A stretch of 64,000 bases of DNA from Hybos culiciformis. Taxonomy: Eukaryota; Arthropoda; Insecta; Diptera; Hybotidae. The notes under the pieces are model-generated. The model ran no database searches. It was not told the DNA's origin and was given only the letters and a program-made list of their open reading frames with translations. Numbering within the stretch: position 1 is the first letter of the stretch; every line of letters begins with the position of its first letter. Positions 11,169 through 46,154 of this stretch are shown here, one piece after another. Location: NCBI GenBank assembly GCA_964007475.1, contig OZ023273.1, positions 72,641,842-72,705,841 on the forward strand, in the 5' to 3' direction. The position numbers and the translations under genes were made by a program.

Positions 11169-13918
11169 ATTTTGTAAAAATTTGCAAATCTACAAATTTT
11201 CAGAATCTTCAAATAAAATTTTTTCTTATGGGGGAAATTTATTAAAAAACATAGGGAAACTTGATCTTAAATGTAAAGTAAGAAACGAAGAAAAAAATAT
11301 TTTATTTGAAATAGTTAATACGGATTCTTGTCCAATATTAGGTCTTAAAAGTTGCCTTGAACTTAATTTGATTAAAAAAATAAATGAAATTAAATCGCTT
11401 TTAACAGAAAAAGAAGAAAAAATCAGGGAATTTAAAGAATTATTTGGAGGGTTAGGACATTTTGCGGAAAATTTAAAATTAGAAATTAATAAAAATTGTT
11501 TACCTGTAGTAAAGCCATCGCGACGAATAGCCGAAAGTTTAAAAATTCCTGTAAAAAATGAACTCGCGAGATTAGTCGAAAAAAATATTATTGAAAAATG
11601 TACAGAAGCTGTAGACTGGTGTTCTAATGTGGTTATAGTAGAAAAACAGAACAAGAAGATAAGGCTATGTTTGGACCCAAAAGAGCTAAATATGGCATTA
11701 AAAGATTTTAATTACCCAATATGTACCTATTTTTGAAGAGATATCTTCTAGTTTAGCGGGAAAATCTTTTTTCACGGTTTTGGATTTAGCTGAAGGATAT
11801 TTTCAAATTTCTTTAAACGAAGAGTCTAAGAAACTGTGTACATTTAGTACTCCTTTCGGATGCTACAGTTTCAAAAGATTGCCGTTTGGTATTAAACCAG
11901 CTCCTATGATTTTTCAGAACTTAAATGAAAAAAATTTTGAAAATATTAGTGGAGTAAATATATACATCGATGATGTTTTAATTGCGGCAGATACAGAAAA
12001 GGAACATGACGAAATTTTCAATAAGGTCATGAAGAGGGCTAAAGAAAAAAATATAAAATTTAATTCAGCTAAATTCCAATATAAAATGGCACGTAATATC
12101 AAAAACTGCAATTTCTGTAGATCCAGAGAGAGTAAAAGCCCTAAACCAAATAAAAGACCCAAAAGACAAAAAAGACCTGTTAAAAATATTAGGAATGATA
12201 AACTATTGCAGAGAGTATATTCCTAATTTGGCCAACATTTCAGAACCACTAAGAGAGTTGACTAGAAAAAACGTAATATTTGACTGGACAGAAATTCATA
12301 AAAAATGTTTGGATAAAATTAAAATGGTATTAGCAAACTCAGTTACCCTAAAATCTTTTGATTCTACAAAATGTATTACAGTACAGGCAGACGCATCTAA
12401 AGCGGGGTTAGGATGTTGTCTTTTACAAGACAATAAGCCAGTACTTTTCGCGTCACGTAGTTTGAACGATTCCGAAGTTAGATATAGTCAAATAGAAAAA
12501 GAATTCTTAGCCATTGTGTTTGCTTGTAACAAGTTCCATTATTTTATTTATGGTCGTAAATTAAAAATACATACGGACCATAAACCTTTGATAGGTATTA
12601 TGCGAAAGGATATTTCGAAAATTCCCAATCCGAGATTACAGCGAATGAAAATAAAATTAATGAAATATCAATTTGAATTAGAATATATACCGGGAAAATT
12701 TATGCATATGGCATATATTTTATCTAGGTATTATAATACTGAAGAAAAGGGTGACGAAATTCCTGATATTGATTGTGTGGTGCATTCCATAAACGTGAGT
12801 GAGGGGAAAAAACAATTATTTAGAAATGAAACTAAAAATGACACAGTTCTACGTAAATTAGTGAAAGTATTAGAAGATGGTTGGCCAAATGAGAAAAATA
12901 AGCTAGATGATGATATAAAATTTTATTTTAGATTTAAAAATGATTTGATTTTAAATGAGGGTATTATATTTAAAATGAAAAAATTCTTGTCCCAGAATCA
13001 ATGAGAATTCAAATGTTAGAAGAGTTACACAGGCCCCATTTAGGAATAGAAAAGACATAGGCGAGAGCTCGTCAAATTTTATATTGGCCAAGTATGAATG
13101 AAATGATTGAAAATAAAATAAGTAATTGCGAAATTTGTCAAAAATATAAAAATAAAGAAATTAAGGAGCCTATGATTTCACATGAAATTCCAAATATGCC
13201 ATTTAATAAAATTGCCATGGATATTTGTGAAATAGGAGGCAAAAACTTTTTAGTAGTTATAGACTACTTTTCTAAACATCTGGAAATTATAAATATCAAC
13301 AAAAAAACTGCATTGACAGTAATAGAAAAATTAAAAATTCTTTTTAAATTCTTTGGCATTCCCAAAACAATAATAGCTGATAACATGCCCTTCAATTCTT
13401 ATGAATTCGAGGATTTTTGCAAAAAGTTAGATATAACAATAACTACCTCTAGTCCTCATTACCCGCAAAGTAATGGACTCGCAGAGAGGGCGGTTCAAAT
13501 AGCAAAACATTTAATTAGAAAATCTAGTGAGTCAAAAACGGAGTTATGGTTGGGTTTGTTAGAATATAATAGCACCCCAATTAAAAATTCTAAAATATCG
13601 CCAATTGAGATTATGTTTAGTAGGAAATTACGAACATTATTGCCTGCGCACAATAATTTTTTTGAAGATTCTGGAAACATTCAAAGTACACTTGACAGAA
13701 ATAATAAAATAAATAAAAATTATTATGATAAACATAAAACAAAAAAAAAAATTTTTGAAGCTAACGACCCAATTTGGTACCGCGATAAAAATATCTGGGA
13801 AAAGGGAAGAATAAAGGAAAAACATAATACACCGAGATCATATATAGTCGAAAGAGAAAATGGTAAGGAGATTCGTAGAAACTCTTATTTTTTGAGAAAA
13901 CGCAAGCAAAATGATTAA
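11160..13918 (+). pseudogene. pol: Pol of element A, broken (protease, RT, RNase H, integrase)
   Basis: The domain order is standard. The protease active site is interrupted at 11147-11160: after LD of the expected D-T/S-G site the next recognisable residues are NVLP, a loss of about 14 bp. RT carries its YIDD box (near 11965) but breaks near 11722 and again near 12090. RNase H (VQADASKAGLGCCL, HTDHKPLIG) is at about 12380-12740. Integrase has a damaged N-terminal zinc region with a frameshift near 12985 and a stop near 13058. Its core keeps D, D and E in AMDICE, IADNMPF and LAERAV. No chromodomain or envelope frame is seen. Confidence 0.88.
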
Positions 13919-14570: not shown

Positions 14571-15466
14571 TTTTCTTTGCATATTTTGAGCCGGGAATAT
14601 CCTAACCGTAGCTCCCTACCCAAAATTTTTGGGCAGGTAATCTTTATTTCACCGGAGCTACCTATTTTGATAAATTTCTTTTTTTGCATATTTTGAGCCG
14701 GGAGACCCTAACCGCAATCTTTATTTGACCGAAGCTAGCTATTTTGAAAAAAAAAAAATTTATTGTAAATTTTGAGCATGGGACGACCATAACCGTAGCT
14801 TCCTACCAAAAATTTTTGGTCAGATAATCTTTATTTCACCGGAGCTACCTATTTTGAGAACATTTTTTTTTGTAAATTTTGAGCCGGGACGACCCTAACC
14901 GAGCTCTCTGCCCAAAATTTTTGGTCAGGTAAACTTTATTTTGATAATTTTTTTTTTTGCATATTTTGAGCCGGGAAGACCCTAAACGCAGCTCCCTAGC
15001 CAAAATTTTTGGTCAGGTAATCTTTATTTTACCGAAGCTACCTATTTTGAGAAGTTTTTTTTTTTGCAAATAATGAGACGGGACGACCCTAACCGTAGCT
15101 CCGTACCGAAAATTTTTGGTCAGATAGTCTTTATTTCACCGAAGCTACCTATTTTGAAAACATTTTTGTTTTGTAAATTTTGAGCCGGGACAAGCCTGGA
15201 CCGTAGCTCCCTACCCAAAATTGTTGGTCAGCTAATCTTTATTTCACCAGAGCTACCTATTTTCAAAATTTTTTTTTTATAAATTTTGAACCGGAACAAC
15301 CTTAACCACAGCTCTCTAGCCAAAGTTTTTGGTCAGGTAACCTTTATTTGACCAAAGCTACCTATTTTGAAAAAAAAAAATTTTGTAAATTTTGAGCTGG
15401 GAGGACCTAACCGTAGCTCCGTACCCAAAATTTTTGGTCAGATAATCTTTATTTCATCAGAGCTAA
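14571..15466. repeat. Tandem satellite, nine units of about 106 bp
   Basis: The motif GAGCCGGGA (or a variant) starts units near 14588, 14694, 14773, 14881, 14969, 15074, 15182, 15288 and 15393. Spacing is mostly 105-108 bp, with two shortened units of 79 and 88 bp. Each unit has GTAGCTCCCTACCCAAAA, TTTTTGGTCAG, AATCTTTATTTCACC and AGCTACCTATTTTGA in order. Single copies of the unit occur inside the fold-back arms (2290-2400, 3820-3920, 23245-23345). Confidence 0.88.
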
Positions 15467-26370: not shown

Positions 26371-28872
26371 ATGGAAGGACACAAAAAGAAAAAGCTATCA
26401 GGTTATGAAAATCGAAAAAGGAAAGTTGAAAAGGAAAGAGAAAATGTGAAACAAAGCGTGGCCCTTTTAAAATATATTTCAAAAAATAAGGAAGGCGATG
26501 CGAATTCCTCCAACTCCAGTTTGACCGAAAGCAGTACAATTATTGTCAACCCGGAAGAAAATGTTTATATAATAGAGAATCAGGAATCTGTTATGGAAGT
26601 AGATGCGATAGATTCAAAACTTGTGAATCAAAATGATGTTTGTGAAGAAAATTTAACATTAGAGTACGATTACAAGGATCCTGGTACATGGCCTATCAAA
26701 TGCACCAATAAATTACGTGATATCATAGTCCAAAATTGGTCACAAAACATACATGACATTTCATACCCAAGTGATTCTAATAATCGGAAATTTTCAAATT
26801 ATCACTACAAAAGAAGGCTTATTAATGGTGAAGTAATTCATAGGAATTGGTTGCAATATTCACTTCTTAGGGATTCATTGTTTTGTTTTTGCTGCAAACT
26901 GTTCGAAAATGAAAATAAAAATCTTCGTCTATTACTGAATATGGTTGCAAGGACTGGAAAAATATATCTGCGATACTTTTATTACATGAGAAAAATCCAA
27001 AACATTTAGAATGTTTTCAGGTATGGAAAGAACTGGAGTTGCGTCTCAAAACAGGCACAACTATTGACGATGATAATTTGCGACTTATTAAACAACAAGA
27101 AAATTATTGGCAAGGAGTATTAGTACGTTTGATCTCTTTAGTTCGGGTTCTAGGGCAACAAAATTTAATACTACGTGGTACTGGTAGCGGCGGAGAAAAA
27201 TTGTTTACTCGTTGCAACGGAAACTTTTTAAAATTTGTTGAATATCTTGCAATGCTTGATCCGCTAAGAGAGAGCACTTGCGTAAGGTTACCGTTAATGA
27301 AATACATAATCACTATTTAGGGAAAAATATTCAAAATGAAATGATTCAACTTCTAGCAAATGCAATTAAGAAAAAAATTATTGATAGTGCTCATTTTTCA
27401 AAATATTTTTCAATAATTTTAGATTGTACTCCAGATGTCAGTCATATCGAGCAAATGACGATGATCATTCGGTTTGTAGATGTAAGAAAATTATTAGATA
27501 ACGACACAGTTGAAATCATCATTAAGGAACCTTTTTTGGGTTTCGTACCGTTAAAATCCACGACAGGTAAGTATATGACAGAAACTGTTTTAAAAGAGTT
27601 GAAAGATATGTCTTTGGATATTCAGCAGCTACGTGGACAAGGTTATGATAACGGAAGTAACATTAAAGGAAAGGAAAATGGAGTGCAGAAAAGAGTATTG
27701 AACATCAATTCTAGAGCTTTTTTTGTGCCTTGCAATGCGCATTCATTAAATTTGGTAGTTAATGATGCTGCTAAGTGTTGCATTGAAGTAGTAATTTTTT
27801 TTGACGGCGTAAAATGTATATATACGTTTTTCTCAGGCTCATCACGCAGATGGGATGTGTTGGTGCGTTATGTAAAGTCGCTGACTTTAAAACCATTAAT
27901 AACACAAGTTGGGAAAGCCGAATTGATGCTTTGAAGCCTCTTCGTTACAAACTAGAAAACATATAGATATTTCTGATGATAAAACTTTCATTGGCACTGC
28001 TGGGACAGCAGCACGTTCAGAAGCACAAGGATTATCCGTTAGAATTTCGAAATTTAAATTTGTTGTTCAACTTATAATATGGCATAAGATATTGTTTGAA
28101 ATTAATATTACCAGCAAAATGCTACACGAAAAAAGTTTAAATATTCATTCTGCTATCCAACAATTACAGAATACAAAATTATTTTCAGAGAATTTAAGGA
28201 GTGATATCGGATTTGGCATATGTTAGTAGATGCTTGTGAACTTGCGAAAGAAATTGATTTTCCAACGGATTCTGATGCAAAACCAGTTCGCATTTGATTA
28301 AAAAAGAAACAATTTTCATATGAAGGGCAAGATTCTTTCATCCAGAACCCTCAGCAACGATTTAAAATGAATTTTTACTTTGCAGTCCTTGATACTGCTA
28401 TTAACTCCGTCAGTGATAGATTTGAGCAAATGCAAAATCTTGAGTCAGTTTTTGGATTCATTTGACATTTACAGCCTACAAAACGTAACAACACAACACT
28501 TATATGCATCGTGTGCTAAGCTTGAGTCTGCATTAAGTCATGATGGCTCTAAAGATATCAAAGCAGTGGATTTGTGTAATGAGCTTCAATCTATTTCTAA
28601 ACGCATTGAACAGAGTTCGTCGCCGAAAGATGTCCTATATTTTATTTGTGAAAGAAAGTTGACCGATATTTATCCAAATATTTTTATCTCCTTAAGAATC
28701 TTTTTAACGTTACCTGTTACTGTAGCAAGTGGTGAAAGAAGTTTTTCGAAACTAAGCTTGTAGGCTTGGCAACACTATCAATTGAAGATGAGATAGCCCT
28801 AGACATTGATGTCGAAGATTGCGTTGCTGATTTCGCCAAACAAAAGGCGCGAAAAGTTAAACTGTTGTGAGT
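26371..28872 (+). pseudogene. hAT transposase with TTF-type zinc finger (ZMYM1-like), decayed
   Basis: ATG 26371 starts a lysine-rich N-terminus, then a TTF-type zinc finger (HRNWLQYSLLRDSLFCFCCK). The catalytic core includes ILDCTPDVSHIEQMT and GQGYDNGSNIKG, two sites for catalytic Asp. The C-terminal dimerisation region reads LRIFLTLPVTVASGERSFSK (28695-28755). Frameshifts or stops near 26945, 27255, 27870, 27930-28380 and 28760 rule out a full product. The protein would cut and rejoin the 21548/29279 ends. The relic in the 870 bp hAT belongs to the same broad group. Confidence 0.85.
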
Positions 28873-30345: not shown

Positions 30346-30530
30346 TATTAGATGAATCTGTGATCTTTTTCCGTGTCATCAACTGTACTCTTCGAAATAA
30401 TTGCAATGGCACTTTTATCATTTCCATCCAATTTGGCAAAAACTTTAATGCGCATGTCTTCGGTACATTCGCAAATTTAGCTCGGTAAATGGTCCATTAC
30501 ATGCATCAATACACATGCAATTATAGAGGA
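30346..30530 (-). pseudogene. Possible RPA-like zinc/OB-fold fragment
   Basis: Minus-strand sequence reads ACNGPFTELN in one frame, then CECTEDMRIKVFAKLDGNDK and SAIAIISKS in the next. A Cys-rich element followed by a beta-rich segment of this kind resembles the C-terminal zinc/OB-fold region of RPA70-like proteins. The fragment is short and broken by a frame change, so the assignment is tentative. Confidence 0.3.
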
Positions 30531-30601
30531 ATGTAAATTGTATTTACATTTCCCTGCGATGTAAATTGTATTTACATTGCTCTATATTGTATTTACATTC
30601 T
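30531..30601. repeat. Three palindromes AATGTAAAT-N-ATTTACATT
   Basis: AATGTAAATTGTATTTACATT-like palindromes follow each other about 30 bp apart; the third is half-sized. They lie about 300 bp beyond the stop codon of the tyrosine recombinase and could be binding sites, a 3' structure or part of an old MITE. Confidence 0.55.
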
Positions 30602-30892
30602 TCATTTTGAATTGCGTAATACTATAAACAAAAATAATATCACTCCAACTCACAATATTTCAATACAGACAAATACCAAAAAAAAAAAAAAATTGCAAAT
30701 GTATACCTCTCACATGCATCATATCAATGTCAAACAAAGCTTAGTTTATAATGCTAAAATCTATATTTTCCCTCTGAGCTAATCAACATTTTCCCTCTGA
30801 GCAAACAAAAAAAAACAAAAAAGAACAAATAAAAAAATACGCGGCTATTTTTTTTTTTTTTTTTTTTATTTATTTAATTAAGCCTTATGTAT

Positions 30893-32278
30893 TTAATTAA
30901 AATTAAAATTAATCGAGCAATTGGAAAAATTGAAACCATTTTTGACGCTTTGATTTTGCAATTGATTCATAGCAAGGGCGGATTTTAATGCACCTGTGTC
31001 AAAATCTTTTTCTTTGTTCAGCAATTGGTCGTTGTAATTTTCCAATTTATCAACTACCAGTGGATCCATTCCTCGCAATGGATTTATTGTATCTTCTATT
31101 GTCTTGTCAGCACTGCTAAAGTCTGGTATTTCAACACATGCTATGTCGCCTGCAACGTGAGGCATAGAACCCTGCGAGGCACCCATCATGTTCAATGTTA
31201 TAGTAGATGTTATTAAATTGCCGGTTGTTTTTTTGTAGTGAATAGAGTCTTCAATGTATCCCTCGGCAACCTTACTTGAGCGCCACCCACCGTGTTTCTT
31301 TATTCTTTCGATACTGGCCCCTGAATTGGCCAACGTTGACGCAGACGTTCGTCTGAACGAGTGACCTACAAACCAAAAACATGTAATTGCTAACATATAC
31401 ATATCCAGCATAATTGAAACTCACCTGTGTATTTCTGCGAATCCGCTAACTTCAAGTATGTAGCAATTCTCTGTGGCATTTTGCTGAACTTATTTTTCCC
31501 GATTGGCTGAATTGTGCATTTTCCAGCTCTGTAGTTAACAAAAAAACGTCGATCAACCGTTCTTGGAACTCGTAAACCAGCATATTTTTGGACCACATCG
31601 AATAATTTTCCAGTAATCGCGAATGATTGTGGCACTTTTGTTTTTGTTTGTGGAATATGCACCAGCAAATAGTTACCATGGTTTTTAACGTCTGCAACAA
31701 CAATTCTAGATATTTCGTCCGTTCGCAATGCCCCACAGATGCCGAAAATGCAAACAACCTGTAATGAACAAAAAAAAATTAAGATAACAAACTTAAATAT
31801 GTACAACATGGATGCCATGTTGAAATAACTACATTTACATTCGTAGATTAAGAGAATTTGTACTCACCTTCACATCTAACCATTCAAAATCTGCCGCGTC
31901 CGAAATGAATTTATGAATTTCTGCTTCAGAAAAAACTGTTGCCTTAACAGGCATGTATCCAACAGCGTTGTTTTTCAAGAAAGCAGTCAATTTATGATAG
32001 CTGCTGATATCAATTTTGTCATGCAATTTCATCATCGTTTTTACCATGGAATAATTCGTCCAAATGCTCGTCGGTTTCCACTTTTTAGATAATTCAAAAA
32101 AATACGCCAGTAAAACGTCTTCTGAATCCGATTTAGCACAATTCAATGTTTTCCATTTTAAAAATTCGTCATAAGCCTTTTTGTATCTTATATTGGATGT
32201 TTCTGGGATGATATTATTTTCTGCAGATTTAACAGCTTGAATAATGCTTTCTGGTTCAAATTCACCATCCGATTCCAT
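30893..32278 (-). CDS. Tyrosine recombinase, Crypton-like, three exons
   Basis: Exons are 32278-31868, 31758-31425 and 31365-30893. Introns of 109 and 59 bp both have GT..AG ends and join in phase to 405 codons without a stop. Exon 1 carries a helical core-binding domain (YKKAYDEFLKWKT...FSEAEIHKFI). The catalytic residues are in place: R149 (GALRTDE), K176 (PQTKTK), H250 and R253 (GHSFRR), W276 (HGGW) and Y285 (AEGY), with nine residues from W to Y as is usual. The protein should cut and join DNA through a phosphotyrosine. No RT lies alongside, so Crypton fits better than DIRS/Ngaro. No element ends were found. The chosen start is the first ATG of the frame; an upstream exon is possible. A piggyBac insertion lies 149 bp upstream. 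Confidence 0.85.
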
Positions 32279-32430
32279 TGTAGTACAGCTTGATAATAAA
32301 TTTAAATTCAAAACTTACTGTACTGCACCAATACGAATGACAATTAAAATCTCGTAAATAAATTTGATTTAACGGTTATCCGATGATTTATTATTATTTT
32401 TGCACAAATATATTATAAACTTTTGTTTAA
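32279..32430 (-). promoter_or_regulatory. Region upstream of the recombinase, cut by piggyBac
   Basis: About 150 bp between the recombinase ATG and the piggyBac TTAA. The original upstream DNA resumes at 35399-35567, which is less AT-rich and holds palindromes such as CGACTAGTCG. No certain TATA box seen. Confidence 0.35.
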
Positions 32431-35394
32431 CCCTTTCATACCAGGTGTCCGCTGGAACGGACATACATTTCAAACCCTTATAAAAAGTAATGAAACACTT
32501 TTTACTATAAAACATTTATGGCAACTAATAATAAAATCGTAAAGTTGCTTAGTTTTAGGCGCCTGTATTCGTAAATAAATATTATCTGTCATTTTTATTG
32601 AAAAAATCGGGAAAAGTCTTGGTCTAAATCTTTCAAACGCAAAGTGCTCCGTTTAAAATTGAAAAAACAATAAAAAGGTAAGTAAAATTAATTTTTTTTT
32701 TTTAATATTTAGAAAATAAATACATTAATTTTTACTAATTCAATGAATATTTCATTAATTTATACAAAATAATGAAATAAAATGAAATAAAAAACAATGT
32801 CCGTTACGACGGAAATTCTTTTCAAAGGCATTGTCCCTTATATGGGACATAAATAAATTTGTACTTCATAGCGAACAAAACAACTGTAAGGATATTTTTT
32901 ATGCACTAATTAAATTAGTTTTAATCGAATTTTTAATTTGTTTGTTAGAAAAATTTTACAATCTTGATTTACTTGGTATATAATTTTGCTTTTATTGATT
33001 ATTAAAATTAATATTTTTCTCGTAGAAATAGAAATAAAATTTAACAGAAGAAGAAATTTTTAAAATTTTGATGGAAAGCGACGATGACAATGTTGAAGAA
33101 GAAGAAGGTGAAGAAAATGAATTATTTGAAGAAATAGACGAAACGAACGAAAAAGTGACTAAAAATTCAGAAAAACTTTTCCTTCAACGAACTGATTGGG
33201 AGCAAAATTTGGAAAATTACGAAGATTTTGAGAATAATGTTGAATTATCGGTTGATTTACCTACTATAATAGCGCAGGAAAATTCTGCAAACATTCAAGA
33301 CAATATTCATATTCAATTAATAGATGGTTTTTTAGGTATTTGGATTATATGTTTATTTTAATTTTAATTACAGGATTTTTTTTCAGGAAATTTTAAGATT
33401 ACACCTAAAAGTAAAATTCAATGGAGACGTCGTGGGAATGAATTATCAAATCCCAAAATTCCTTTTACTTCTTCAACAAATGAAGACGACAATTATACAA
33501 AAGAGCTTACGCCATTTGAAATTTTTTCAAAATATATTCCAGGTGAAATTTTTCAAACAATGGCCACCTATACAAATATTTATGCCCTTCAAAATGACAA
33601 TAAAATGAAAACTACTATTTCTCAAGAAATGCGTTTGTTTGTGGGAATTCATGTACAAATTGGAATTTTTAAATTGCCACAACTAAGAATGTATTGGGAC
33701 CGCAATTTAAACCTTTCCTTAATTGCTAATGCTATGTCAAGAGACCGTTTCCTCCAATTACGTTCAAATTTTCATCTTGTAAACTGTGCAGAAATTTCGA
33801 TTGATAATAAGGATGTCTTTTTCAAAATACGACCTTTAGCAGATTCGGTTAGAAAAAGATGTTTGGAATTAGATCTAGAGGAAACACTCTCTGTTGACGA
33901 ACAGATTGTTCCATTTAAAGGTCGATTCGTTGCCAAACAATATTTGAAATATAAGCCTCATCCTTGGGGATTCAAAATTTTTGTGTTATGTGGAAAAAGT
34001 GGTCTTCCATATGATTTTTTTTTGTACCAAGGGAAAACAAAACCAATCCCAGAGCAGTATTCGAAAATGTTTGGTTTTAGTGGTGCTGTGGTTATGAAGC
34101 TTGTTGAGCGCATTTCAAAAGACGGCCCCACTTTATTTTTCGACAATTTTTTTAATTCCTACCAATTGTTGGAAATTTTACAACTTTAAAATATAAATGC
34201 TGCTGGGACCTGCAGAATTAATCGTTTCCCAAAAACTATATTTTCCGCCGATAAAGAATTTATGAAAAAATATAGAGGTTATTCAGAAGAAATTTTTAGT
34301 CGAGACGGAATGATAAATATAACAAAGTGGCAAGATAATAAGCCTATACATGTCGCATCAAATTTTAAAACATCTAATTTTAAAAATGACATACAACGAT
34401 GGGATAAGTCTAATTGCAAATATGTGCAAATTCAACAACCTGCTATTATTAATAATTATAATCAAGGAATGGGCGGTGTTGATCTTTTAGATCAACTAAT
34501 ATCATATTATCGTTGTTTTGTAAAATCAAAAAAATTGCCATTACGCCTTATCTCTCATTTTATTGATTTTGCTATTGTGGCATCATGGATTGAATACAAA
34601 CAAAGTGCTCTTAAGTTAAATACAAAAATAATGTCACTCCTTCAATTCAGATCATACATTGCGGCGTGTTTATTAACAAAAACCGATCCAGACAAAAAAA
34701 GAGGACGACCACGATTGGAAGTAGATGAAATTGAGAGAACATTAAAGCGAGCTGAATTAGAACACCGTCCAATCAAGGATATAAGGCTTGATAATTTTAA
34801 TCATTTACATATGTATGATTGTAGAAAGGAGCAAACCAGATGTAAAGCTGATGGCTGTAAGTTTAAAACTCACATCTATTGTTCAAAATGTGGAGTTCAT
34901 TTATGCTTGTTGAAGGATCGAAATTGTTTTCTTGATTTTCATACTAAAAAGTAATGGGCAATATTAACACAAATAATGTTGAAAAAACAATAACCAAAAA
35001 GAACTGACATAATATGTACCTTAAGAATTAAAAAACCAAGATTATAAAATATTATTAATCGTAACATATACCTAAAAATGTTCCTTATATGAATTTGAAT
35101 ATTATTTTCTTTAATTTTTTATTTTTCGTTGTTTTTTTAAATTTTTAATTAATTTAAATAAAATATATTACAATAAAAAATATATTTAACGCATTTTAAT
35201 TAAGATTTTTCTACATCCTTTGATTTGATTTGTACGCTAGTGCGGTTCTAAAAGTCATATTTTAATAAAAAAGTCATATTTTAATAAATTATAAATTTTT
35301 TTTTATTATTTTTTGATTTATTAGGCAATATTCCATTTATTAAAAACGAGAAAGATTTTTTTGCACTACCAGAAAAAAATTAGGTCTCAAAGGG
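32431..35394 (+). mobile_element. piggyBac element, 2,964 bp
   Basis: The ends CCCTTTCATACC and CCCTTTGAGACC (as read inward) are flanked by TTAA on both sides (32427-32430 and 35395-35398), the target duplication specific to piggyBac. It carries one transposase gene with a short intron. Except for one stop codon in that gene it looks complete. Confidence 0.95.
33071..34954 (+). pseudogene. piggyBac transposase, one in-frame stop
   Basis: Exon 1 is 33071-33335 (acidic N-terminus) and exon 2 is 33387-34954, joined across a 51-bp intron (GT...TTTTTTTTCAG). Together they give 610 codons, near the size of the moth piggyBac protein. Catalytic aspartates are at about 259 (SVDEQ), 341 (FFDNFFNS) and 454 (GGVDLLDQ). 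The C-terminus has a Cys/His-rich domain (CKADGCKFKTHIYCSKCG). A TAA at 34187-34189 (codon 356) interrupts a frame that is otherwise open on both sides. Without readthrough the protein would lack the third aspartate and the zinc domain. Confidence 0.9.
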
Positions 35395-35398
35395 TTAA

Positions 35399-35567
35399 CA
35401 ACCTTTGTTTACTTTTTTGCAATGCAGTATAGATTGGAACCAGACATCGACGCCGATCGCTTTTTTCCGCCGGCGACTAGTCGAATTTTGGCCTTCGATT
35501 GCTGCGGCTGGTCGACTCAAAAATACCTGTTTTAGAGAAAAAGAACGGTTCGAAAAAAAAATCTAAC
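35399..35567. other. Continuation of the recombinase upstream flank
   Basis: DNA to the right of the piggyBac. It includes ATCGACGCCGATCGC, CGGCGACTAGTCG and CGGCTGGTCGACTC, an unusually GC-rich stretch with short palindromes. It may be promoter or an end of the Crypton-like element. Confidence 0.3.
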
Positions 35568-35905
35568 GGGCTGTCTACATTAGCGATTTAGAATCGCGCG
35601 TATTTATGAATGTATTGTATTTTTTCTATTTCATTTATTAGTATTTGTGTTTGCTCAATATGCCACAGGGTTAAATTTACAGCATGCGATTTTTATACAT
35701 TTTTCCAAATTGTACCATTTTACTTGATTTAAATGTGAAATTAATAAAAAAAAAAAATCTGTGAGAAATGTCAAAAATACGCATGCTGAAAAATTATTCA
35801 AAATCAGCATGCGTATTTTGCTGCGATTTTGGATTTGTATAAAGATACACGAATACATTTAAAGAACAAAATCGCATGAAGGAAAAATACGCTAATGTAG
35901 ACACC
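35568..35905. mobile_element. Small TIR element (MITE), about 338 bp
   Basis: Left GGGCTGTCTACATTAGCG and right (reverse complement) GGTGTCTACATTAGCG form terminal inverted repeats, and internal GCATGCG motifs are also arranged inversely. No target duplication could be fixed, so the superfamily is open. It sits at the border of the LINE ORF1 segment. Confidence 0.7.
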
Positions 35906-42339: not shown

Positions 42340-45300
42340 ATAACAACGCTAATTTTAAAACACATTACATTTATCCTAGTACAAAATTTAATACTAACTA
42401 TCCTTCAAATTCGAATAAAACAAAAATTTTTTTTAATTCTAATTTAAGACCAAATGCAAACCGAAACACAAATTTTTCAAACGAAAATAAAAATTGTCCT
42501 AATTATTATCCAAACGTAAATACAAAATCTAAATTAAGTACAAAAAATGTCTTTAACGTAAATCCAAATTTCTCTGATTTCATTATTTTAAATTCTAAAT
42601 TAAGTTTTCAAGGCTCAACTTTTCTAGTCGATACTCAAGCAGATATTTCGCTAATAAAAATTTCATCAATCGATTCAAATTTTAACTTAAAAAATAAATT
42701 AAATTCTAACAATATTATAAGCATTTTGGGAATTACGCAAAATTCTATAAAAAGTTTAGGTACAATCAACGTCAACTTTCATTTTAAACATACAATATTA
42801 TCTTGTTTACTACACGTTGTTCCAGACGAATTTAATATCCCTTCGGATGGTATTTTAGGCAAAGCCTTTCTCAAATTTTATAAGTGGCAAATAAATTATG
42901 ATTCTATGCAATTAACACTCAACAATAATTCTTATTCTTTTTCAATTCCAATTTTAGAAAACCCTAGTGAAAATTCAATTGTTTTACCTTCTAGATGTGA
43001 AGTCATTCGTACTTTTATTCTTCCAAATGAGTCTCCTTGTGTAGTGCTTGATCAACAAATAGCACCTGATATTTTCATTCCACGTACAATAGTTTCTTCT
43101 TTAATTAAAGTTTTAAATTTATCAGATAAAATTCGAATAATTCCTAAAACACTTCACTTAAATCAGAACCTCTTTCAAATTTTAACATCCTAAGAATTGA
43201 CACAAATAACAATCAAAATAGAACAAAAGAATTGCTTCAAATAATATCTAAAAATACCAAACCGCAATACCAAGGAAAATTATTAAATTTATGTGAACAA
43301 TATAGTAATATTTTCCATATGAAAGATGATAAAATGACAACAAACAATTTCTATACACAAAATTTAAGAATAGATAACAATACTGCGGTATATGTGAAGA
43401 ATTATAGACTTCCATATTCCCAAAAACAGGAAATCGACGATCAAGTTAATAAATTGTTAAAAAATGATCTTATTGAACCAAGCCAATCTAATTTTAACAG
43501 CCATATCATTTTAGTGCCTAAGAAAGGTTCAGATAAAAAATGGAGATTATGCATAGATTACCGTCTAGTAAATAAAAAACTAATTGCAGATAAATATCCA
43601 CTGCCATATTAGACAATTTAGGCAGATCAAAATTTTTTACGGTACTCGACCTTTATTCGGGATTTCATCAAGTTCCACTTAGTGAAAACTTGCGAGATAT
43701 AACATCTTTTAGCACAGACAAAGGTTCGTTTAGATGGAAAGTTCTTCCATTCGGTTTAAATGTATCACCTAACTCATTTTCAAGAATGATGGCGCTAGCG
43801 TTCTCAGGTCTTACACCGTTACAATGTTTTCTATATATTGACGATATCATATGTCTTGGCTGTTCAGTCGAACATCACCTTAAAAATCTTAAATCTATCT
43901 TCGAAGTTGTAAAAAATTTAACCTTAAACTTAATCCTGAAAAATGTGTATTTTTTAAAAATGAAGTCACATACCTAGGACATAAATGTACTGATCGAGGT
44001 ATATACCCAGATAGTAGCAAAATAGATACAGTTAGAAATTATCCTGTACCAAAAGATAAAGACGCTACCAAACGATTTGTTGCATTTATGAACTATTATC
44101 GTAAATTCATACCAAATTTCGCATCCATAGCAAAACCCCTAAATAATATGACTAGACTAAAAGTAAATTTTTCTTGGACACAAGAGTGTCAAAAATCTTT
44201 TGAAATTTTAAAAAATTGTTTAATTAATCCACCCATCTTAAATTATCCAAATTTCTCAAAACCTTTTATCCTTACTGTTGACGCTTCTAACTTGGGAATA
44301 GGATCCACCCTAAGTCAGGAGATCAATGGCAACGATTTACCAATTTCATATTCTTCACGTAGTTTTACAAAAGGTGAAATGAATAAATCAACAATAGAAA
44401 AAGAATTAGCTGCAATACACTTCGCAATTTTACACTATAGACCTTACATTTACGGAACAAAATTTACAATTAGATCTGATCATAAACCCTTAATTTATTT
44501 ATTTTCTTTAAAAAACCCATCTTCAAAATTAACTAGAATGCGCTTAGATATAGAAGAATATAATTTTACAGTAGAATATATTAAAGGAAAATGTAACGTG
44601 GTGGCAGATGCCCTATCCCGTATCTCAATCGACGAACTTAAAGATTTGCAAACCAAAGAAAATAAAGTATATGTTACGACAAGATCAATGTCAAATAAAA
44701 AATCAACAAATAATAATTTCAACGAAAGTAGCAACAGTCCAAATAGAGAAAAAATTTTAAATAAAAATGAGAAAATTGTTATTTATGAGGATAAATTTAA
44801 CTATAAAATACCTCAGTTAATCTTCAACTCAGTAGATAGTTGTAAAGTATATAAAAAACGTAAATTAGTATATAAAAATGACATTTCAAATATTTATCAG
44901 ACATTAGAGCCTGGATGCAATAAAATTTTGAAAAAGGAAACAATTCTAGCATTGTTTCTTGCCCAGTTAGATAAAAATTTAATTAAAAGCAATATAAACA
45001 AAATTCAAATAAATAAAGAGGATAGCATTTTTAAATTAATTACAATAAAAGATTTTATTAAAGTTGCAAATAAAAAGATAAAAGAATTAGAAATCGCGAT
45101 AGTTTCACGTCCATTACCCATTATTAGTACTGGGGAAAAACAAAAACTTTTAGATCGTTATCATAAAGACCCTATATTTGGCGGACACGCAGGTCAAAAA
45201 AGGTTATATGCAAAATTGAGGTCATGTTTTTATTGGAAAGGCATGAAAAAAGACGTAGCAACCTACGTCATGGGATGTAAAGATTGTCAAAGAAATAAAG

Positions 45301-46154
45301 CAAAAATTAGAAACATCGAACCGCTTCAAATTACAAAAACACCTAATAAAGCGTTCGATACCTTAATTATTGATACGATAGGCCCGTTACAAAAAACCAT
45401 TAATGAAAACGAATATGCAGTCACTTTAATGTGTGACTTAAGTAAATATTTAATTACGATACCAGTAGCCAATAAGGAAGCTACCACTATTGCGCAAGCT
45501 ATTTTCGAACATTTTGTTCTATTATACGGCCCAATGAGGAAAATCATTACTGATTGCGGTACAGAGTATGCCAATAGTGTAATAGCTGAATTATTTAAAT
45601 TATTAAATATTGAACATAGTTTTTCGACACCTTACCATCACGAAACAGTTGGAACTGTAGAAAGGAACCATCGTGTTCTTAATGAATACCTTAGATCATC
45701 ATGATAATTGGGATGAATATTTGAAATACTTCACGTATAATTATAATATTACCCCTAATTCAAATTTTAACTTCACATATTCTCCATATGAGCTAATATT
45801 TGGTAAACAACCAAATTCGCATAATTTCTTATTAGGTAACCAAGTAGATCCTGTTTATAACTTTGATAGTTACGCTAAACACGTAAAATTTAAATTACAA
45901 AATTCAAACAAAATCATCAAAAAACTATTGGAAAATTAAGAAATAAGTCGACATATGATAAGAAATCGACAGATAATCAGTTCAAAGTGAATGATAAAAT
46001 TCTTCTAAGAGAAGAAAATAGAAAAAAATTAGATAAACTATATTCTGGCCCCTACACAATTATAAAAATAGATGGTTTAAATATAACTTTTATTAATAAT
46101 AAAAATAAACCTATTAGGGTCCACAAAAACAGAATAATTAAATATAAGGATTAA
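42300..46154 (+). pseudogene. pol: Pol of element B, frameshifted
   Basis: The -1 frame is open from about 42300 to 43193 and holds the protease with DTQAD (42630-42644) where D-T/S-G is usual. RT begins after a frame change near 43165, loses several bases near 43610, carries YIDD near 43843, and shifts again near 43910. RNase H (LTVDASNLGIGSTL; RSDHKPLI) and integrase lie in the long frame 44088-45704. Integrase has the zinc region (GGHAG...GCKDC) and the catalytic D, D, E in IIDTIGP, ITDCGTEY and GTVERNH. The C-terminus continues in other frames to about 46154 (GPYTIIKIDG). Confidence 0.9.

Follow-up and report, generated by a model that had tools for sequence, protein, structure and literature searches.

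A recombinase gene and the remains of its element

On the minus strand of the window, by which we mean the whole 64-kb stretch of DNA that was analysed, a recombinase gene runs from position 32278 to 30893, its three exons joining into 405 codons with no stop. No second copy of this gene was found within the 64-kb window. The gene and the element parts on either side of it are given below, with loci elsewhere in the genome (L031 and the like) named where they define a feature.

30445-30447, minus strand: TAA at the 3' junction, the target trinucleotide, placed by alignment to sister copies
30448-30892, minus strand: 3' non-coding part with the intact 3' terminus (..GACATGCGCAT), aligned to the 3' ends of L031-L037
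30531-30598, no strand: three ATGTAAATTGTATTTACAT palindromes close to the 3' terminus, two of them exact and the third degenerate, also in L031
30893-31365, minus strand: exon 3, ending in TAA, with H250, R253, H273, W276 and Y285
31366-31424, minus strand: intron 2, 59 bp, GTGAGT..TTGTAG
31425-31758, minus strand: exon 2, with R149 and K176, and with Q181 where most relatives have R
31759-31867, minus strand: intron 1, 109 bp, GTGAGT..TTACAG
31868-32278, minus strand: exon 1, ATG at 32278, matching copies L031-L038
32279-32426, minus strand: gene-side part of the 5' non-coding leader, from comparison with L038
32427-35398, plus strand: piggyBac-like transposon (32431-35394) within the leader, with TTAA at 32427-32430 and 35395-35398
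35399-35571, minus strand: outer leader remnant, common to L038 and partly to L043, with no 5' terminus beyond it
35572-35903, no strand: MITE-like inverted-repeat element with 14-bp ends TGTCTACATTAGCG / CGCTAATGTAGACA, also in L038

The two GT..AG introns and the in-phase, stop-free 405 codons proposed in the sequence-only reading are borne out by these coordinates and by the relatives. Alternative GT..AG combinations likewise give open frames, up to 424 amino acids long, so that openness alone leaves the splice sites unfixed, and relatives were therefore used to place them. Both junctions are crossed by the 405-residue model in the 45 relatives inspected (of 120 aligned); three of these, P0026, P0035 and P0043, are protein predictions in which an intron at exactly the intron-1 position has been translated as coding, and both introns, with the same ends, are retained in four intact sister copies in the genome. 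Both introns are thus predicted from these comparisons.

The catalytic set consists of R149, K176, H250, R253, H273 (W276) and Y285, all present as had been claimed. Among the 120 listed of 158 relatives, the corresponding columns hold R in 115, K in 109, H in 115, R in 118, H in 105, W in 118 and Y in 117. A profile search, which had been suggested as a check, matched Pfam Phage_integrase (E 2.9e-11, residues 146-287), and the nearest solved structure by sequence in a PDB search is Cre (E 2.7e-5). With a Phage_integrase match and the residues R..K..H-x-x-R..H/W..Y in order, as in the tyrosine recombinase superfamily, the product is a tyrosine recombinase, its activity being predicted.

The relatives comprise 158 proteins at E 1e-3 among 2161 candidates. 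The best of them by E-value show 48-49% identity over about three quarters of the query, with up to 58% over a shorter part, and all of the 120 listed that carry a named organism come from insects (ants, wasps, a sawfly, moths, beetles and fungus gnats). In a tree of 50 rows the window protein falls in a set of four that includes two fungus-gnat proteins (100/97; bootstrap not settled), making fungus gnats the nearest named relatives. Pfam scans of 36 members found Phage_integrase in all 36 and a phage-integrase SAM-like N-terminus in seven. Relatives outside insects were also sought and were rejected, since none of the 11, 36 and 23 pattern matches from scans of prokaryote genomes and IMG/VR was confirmed by tblastn.

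The leader of the element is split by two insertions. The empty TTAA site of the piggyBac-like transposon is found, exact, in L038, and its transposase frames, interrupted by a single in-frame stop at the end of the frame 33368-34189, match PF13843 before and after that stop; the suggestion that neighbouring elements are broken, followed up at this adjoining transposon only, holds there. Similarity of the window copy to any Crypton copy stops at the MITE-like element, where no target duplication was seen. The MITE in L038 has its left end cut at a different place than in the window.

The window copy thus keeps a 3' end and has no 5' end. Its 5' terminus is absent from the 64-kb window, including 28 kb upstream, at up to 7 mismatches, and the 5' end region of about 650 bp has only two short, weak matches in the window (63 and 51 bp; 75-76% identical). 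Nested insertions might have displaced the 5' end of a copy that is itself still mobile, and the leader is indeed split in this way by the piggyBac and the MITE, but given the missing terminus and those two weak matches we find continued mobility highly improbable. The missing region is one that gene-less derivatives keep (see below), so that the window copy could at most supply enzyme in trans; by these comparisons it is probably immobile. Two other candidate features were dropped: position 32376 as the 5' end of the element, where active copies are without a leader segment that L038 has, and the ATGTAAATTGTATTTACAT palindromes as recombination site, these being weakly enriched (10 matches, a number reached in 3 of 100 shuffles) and not terminal.

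A recently active family that inserts at TAA

The genome searched is a 342-Mb assembly of 509 contigs. A Pfam profile search of it returned no match, whereas a search with the window protein returned 55 exon-level matches, which indicates that the profile search was limited; 18 genome stretches were retrieved for comparison. At least 11 further gene copies (L031-L041) lie in the same genome. Four of them, L031-L034, are full elements of about 2.6 kb, 99.0-99.9% identical to L031, with different flanks and with intact, mutually identical coding sequences. Apart from the three recombinase exons, the 2610-bp element in L031 has no frame above 108 amino acids, and its coding capacity is a tyrosine recombinase only, as required of a Crypton. 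Common ends, different flanks and empty sites among the copies attest to mobility. The identification as a Crypton is accordingly upheld by a recombinase-only element in multiple copies with different flanks.

Other copies have lost parts of the gene. A second near-identical trio, L035-L037, carries a 1-base insertion and a 16-base deletion, leaving a frame of 399 amino acids (translated for L035) in which the stretch with H250 and R253 is out of frame. That three near-identical copies exist despite this loss indicates that a copy need not encode the enzyme that moves it, and L035-L037 were probably moved by the enzyme of other copies. The gene is frameshifted in L038 and has indels in L039 and L043; only its first part is present in L044 and L045. 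L040 and L041 form a local cluster at 54.93-54.99 Mb of contig C2 of this genome, with 392-residue frames, R149G and K176N in both and R253K in L041; their dN/dS against the window copy is 1.25 and 1.40, respectively. Judged by these substitutions they would be catalytically dead while still open, either relics or candidates for a repressor or domesticated form.

The 5' 256 bp, used as a query, gave at least 83 matches, and 40 places were scored out of 1772 first-look candidates. All 40 are 99-100% identical over the matched part, and the gene-bearing L031-L037 account for seven of them. Four other scored places, read over 801 bp, share 87% identity with the first 641 bp of the element; one of these, traced to its 3' end, is a 1339-bp derivative without the recombinase gene that keeps both end regions. 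Gene content at the scored places thus covers the seven gene-bearing copies and this one fully traced gene-less derivative. Near-identical copies had been named beforehand as the sign of an active Crypton, and by this measure the family was recently active.

The window copy differs from the four intact copies at 23 of 1218 coding bases and 15 of 405 residues, and from the broken L038 at 15 compared bases. This small distance agrees with the young copy proposed in the sequence-only reading, and sequence comparison places the window copy as a recent sister that has diverged only slightly and whose gene is still open. The other proposal, domestication as a host gene selected as a recombinase or DNA-binding protein, could appeal to the open frame, the good splice sites, the complete catalytic residues and a pairwise dN/dS of 0.48 against the intact copies (15 nonsynonymous and 8 synonymous changes). 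However, with 15 nonsynonymous changes among 23 the shortfall from neutrality is not significant (binomial p 0.085). Only five changes can be polarised to the window branch, four nonsynonymous and one synonymous, which is close to the expectation under no selection. The window copy has Q181 at a conserved arginine: R stands at this position in 108 of the 114 relatives whose alignment covers it, and in those other genome copies that have letters here. Nor is a stop-free frame remarkable, since 4.9% of random substitutions create a stop and the chance of none after 5 to 23 changes is 0.78 to 0.31; the frame is still open because the copy is young. Moreover, the known domesticated Crypton domains of animals have, according to PMC3212892, lost catalytic residues, whereas here these are retained. 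Single-copy status and low dN/dS had been put forward as signs of domestication; the gene belongs to a multi-copy family with four identical intact members, and the five polarised changes, of low power, show no purifying selection. We therefore give domestication very little credence, and we hold with very high confidence that the window copy is an insect CryptonI-like recombinase gene of the status described.

Copies with different flanks set the termini of the element as TAA|TAGTAGATTAC.. and ..GACATGCGCAT|TAA. In 15 tabulated elements the left neighbour is TAA in 11, TTA in one (L033), AAA in one (L037) and TAG in two (L040n and L041n), and three further left ends (L050-L052) are likewise preceded by TAA. 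The right neighbour is TAA in 14 of the 15, the 3' end of L037n not having been found, and the base following the right TAA is A in 14/14.

Empty sites were identified for three insertions. The left flank of L034 has ten other matches in the genome, and all three examined read as an empty CCAA-TAA-AATATTT, as against CCAA-TAA-[element]-TAA-AATATTT in the occupied site; one further match, at 99%, ends six bases short of the site. The other two come from one repeat, copies of which hold members of two Crypton families (L044 5199-5910 and L048 4411-5230, oriented), so that each serves as the empty site of the other: L044a has its empty site in L048 (GTATT-TAA-AAATTTTAG), and the second-family copy in L048 has its own in L044 (ACATAA-TAA-AAACTTTTT), both resting on paralogues about 80-93% identical. 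At the sites examined, insertion is at TAA, with one TAA on each side and no other gain or loss. A 7-bp core, ATAGTAG, and a common AAT had also been considered as the overlap and were dropped once the empty sites fixed it as TAA. For identity, status, ends and TAA insertion taken together our confidence is high, a step below that for identity and status.

A predicted left-end hairpin and an inverted copy of the 3' terminus

Terminal inverted repeats of the DDE type were not found in L031 when its 5' 300 bp were compared with its 3' 350 bp. What matches the 3' terminus in inverted orientation in L031 is an internal place, 198-211, and not the 5' terminus. The first 190-195 bp or so of the left end form one hairpin with a predicted energy of -55.3 kcal/mol, compared with -18.6 (sd 2.9) in shuffles (z -12.5). 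Left ends were taken from 5' motif matches in the retrieved loci, of which 11 were folded (L035 being the same as L031) and 10 aligned, leaving out near-identical copies, a tandem duplicate in L038 and a 7-mismatch match in L047. In this alignment (A2), the 58 pairs are 95.1% paired, against 90.4% in shuffles, and two-sided changes occur at 12 pairs (6.4 in shuffles) and in 29 cells (9.3 in shuffles), values reached in none of 500 shuffles. Slid structures give 0 to 7 two-sided-change cells. Further pair types show no excess over shuffles (20 against 19.8). The stem keeps GA opposite GA in 10/10 left ends, and a second such position near the loop in 7/7 with letters there; two other GA positions are not retained (3/10 and 2/8).

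The hairpin is followed immediately by a stretch that repeats the 3' terminus in inverted orientation, matching at 12 of 14 bases, whereas about 128,000 window positions, with the window copy's own 3' end masked, reach at most 11 of 14. Read in reverse, this stretch gives CATGCACAT-TAA-AGCAGTATACAATACATG, in which the 3' terminus runs into the 5' terminus across TAA. In L045, the 3' terminus and the inverted copy alike have CCCATACGCAT, and some subfamilies change both together; in others, the two differ by one or two bases. The left end holds what reads as an inverted copy of a predicted circle junction; the internal complementary region of DIRS1 is built alike. When the left end is co-folded with the 3' terminus, the latter pairs beside the hairpin, in both Crypton families.

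The second family (L046-L048) shares about 46% protein identity over 116 residues with the first and has unrelated end sequences. A left-end hairpin is present in L046 and L048, the left end of L047 not being preserved. Its 3' end was predicted from the sequence behind the hairpin, and similarity of the three copies stops there; among seven pattern matches to the predicted end, three are these ends, two are inverted copies and two are unrelated. In this family the inverted 3'-end copy matches at 20 of 21 bases, the best match in the window reaching 17, and the family's single insertion with an empty site is also at TAA. An internal complementary region on a 3-bp junction equal to the end trinucleotides is thus found in both families.

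Fold-back sequences are frequent in this genome. Long examples outside Crypton copies, of 280-760 bp and 85-88% self-complementary, lie in L037:1625-2058, L045:3718-4440 and L031:3071-3344 (oriented).

Possible routes of movement and known systems

We class the element as probably CryptonI-like by comparison with the published description of CryptonI; our own tree consists of 50 relatives' rows. As in the CryptonI and animal Cryptons treated in PMC3212892, it is a DNA element of insects that encodes only a recombinase with no extra C-terminal domain, it has no terminal inverted repeats joining both ends, and it has gene-less derivatives built from both end regions. For animal Cryptons, neither direct nor inverted repeats were found at the termini in that study (Kojima and Jurka 2011, PMC3212892). 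Unlike those published elements, the present one has a left-end hairpin with an inverted copy of the 3' terminus, exact ends and a TAA target. Excision, multiplication and target choice of Cryptons are there described as inferred mainly by analogy with bacterial elements (PMC3212892). Within the open-access full texts searched, including PMC3212892, PMC3627910, PMC6681497, PMC4157794 and PMC8969392 in the parts available, and with subscription papers, Repbase notes, supplements and preprints outside that scope, we found no account of a region like this in a Crypton.

We hypothesize that the left end, when single-stranded, would fold on itself, and that the 3' terminus would pair with the adjacent inverted copy, holding both ends at TAA in the manner of a splint. 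Closure would then yield a circle, whose junction (3' arm, TAA, 5' arm) would be the recombinase site, and the recombinase would swap this junction with a genomic TAA. Tyrosine recombinases act on a folded single strand at integron attC sites and at the attachment hairpins of CTX phage. These systems are bacterial, and the comparison with the Crypton ends makes no claim of homology between the sites. We put at about 0.4 the probability of the boldest reading, namely that insect Cryptons carry a DIRS-type internal complementary region with a conserved terminal hairpin and move via a self-splinting single-stranded intermediate over TAA; the splinted single-strand step in itself we rate a little short of an even chance.

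Alternatively, the left-end palindrome and the inverted copy of the 3' end might be only double-stranded recombinase sites or a cruciform, subject to arm-to-arm conversion, with ordinary excision and no single strand. The inverted copy and the outer arm would then be two arms round a short spacer, much like a normal recombinase site with its two inverted repeats of 11-13 bp set 6-8 bp apart. Because conversion between palindrome arms can mimic compensatory change, and because fold-backs are common in this genome, such a binding-site explanation is viable. Against it, the pairing spans the whole of about 190 nt, beyond the terminal arms, and the GA/GA mismatches are kept although arm conversion should erase them. 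We consider it a substantial possibility.

In DIRS1-like elements, according to the account of their structure in PMC3266345, both termini are repeated internally in inverted orientation, the two copies meeting on 3 bp that recur at the ends; insertion is proposed to proceed by recombination with an identical 3 bp and to leave no further duplication. The Crypton ends described here resemble these in their inverted terminus copies on an end-matching 3 bp, in 3-bp recombination and in having a tyrosine recombinase. They differ in that the Crypton has no reverse transcriptase, RNase H or methyltransferase and no inverted terminal repeats, retains its introns, and carries its internal copy at the left end beside a hairpin and not near the 3' end. 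The shared inverted junction copy and 3-bp junction rule (PMC3266345) could mean that the element moves by reverse transcription in trans, in DIRS fashion, having lost its own reverse transcriptase. We regard this as unlikely: introns are kept in 4/4 intact copies, where a spliced sense transcript would lose them, L031 offers no frame above 108 amino acids besides the recombinase exons, and the termini are not joined by inverted repeats.

A hairpin at the 5' terminus and short asymmetric inverted repeats are also described for Helitron2 in PMC3627910, which reports compensatory changes in that hairpin in two related elements. Helitron2 differs as a rolling-circle Rep/helicase element with another protein and hairpins at both ends (PMC3627910). 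Crypton movement becomes a testable model in a genome that offers intact copies identical to one another, precisely defined ends, empty sites and a folded end that is conserved. Structurally, such ends also offer a bridge from DNA-only Cryptons to DIRS retrotransposons, two groups whose relationship the trees discussed in PMC6681497 leave unsettled. If Cryptons do splint themselves over TAA, the splint would predate reverse transcription or owe nothing to it, and it could have passed from a Crypton to the DIRS retrotransposons.

Elsewhere in the window, Gypsy-type frames with RNase H extend over several frames at 43893-45704 and 12057-13004, the former also with an integrase domain. Positions 27260-27934 match DUF4371, which we take to be probably a hAT-type remnant, and 14716-15465 hold a tandem array of about five copies of a unit of 105-107 bp.
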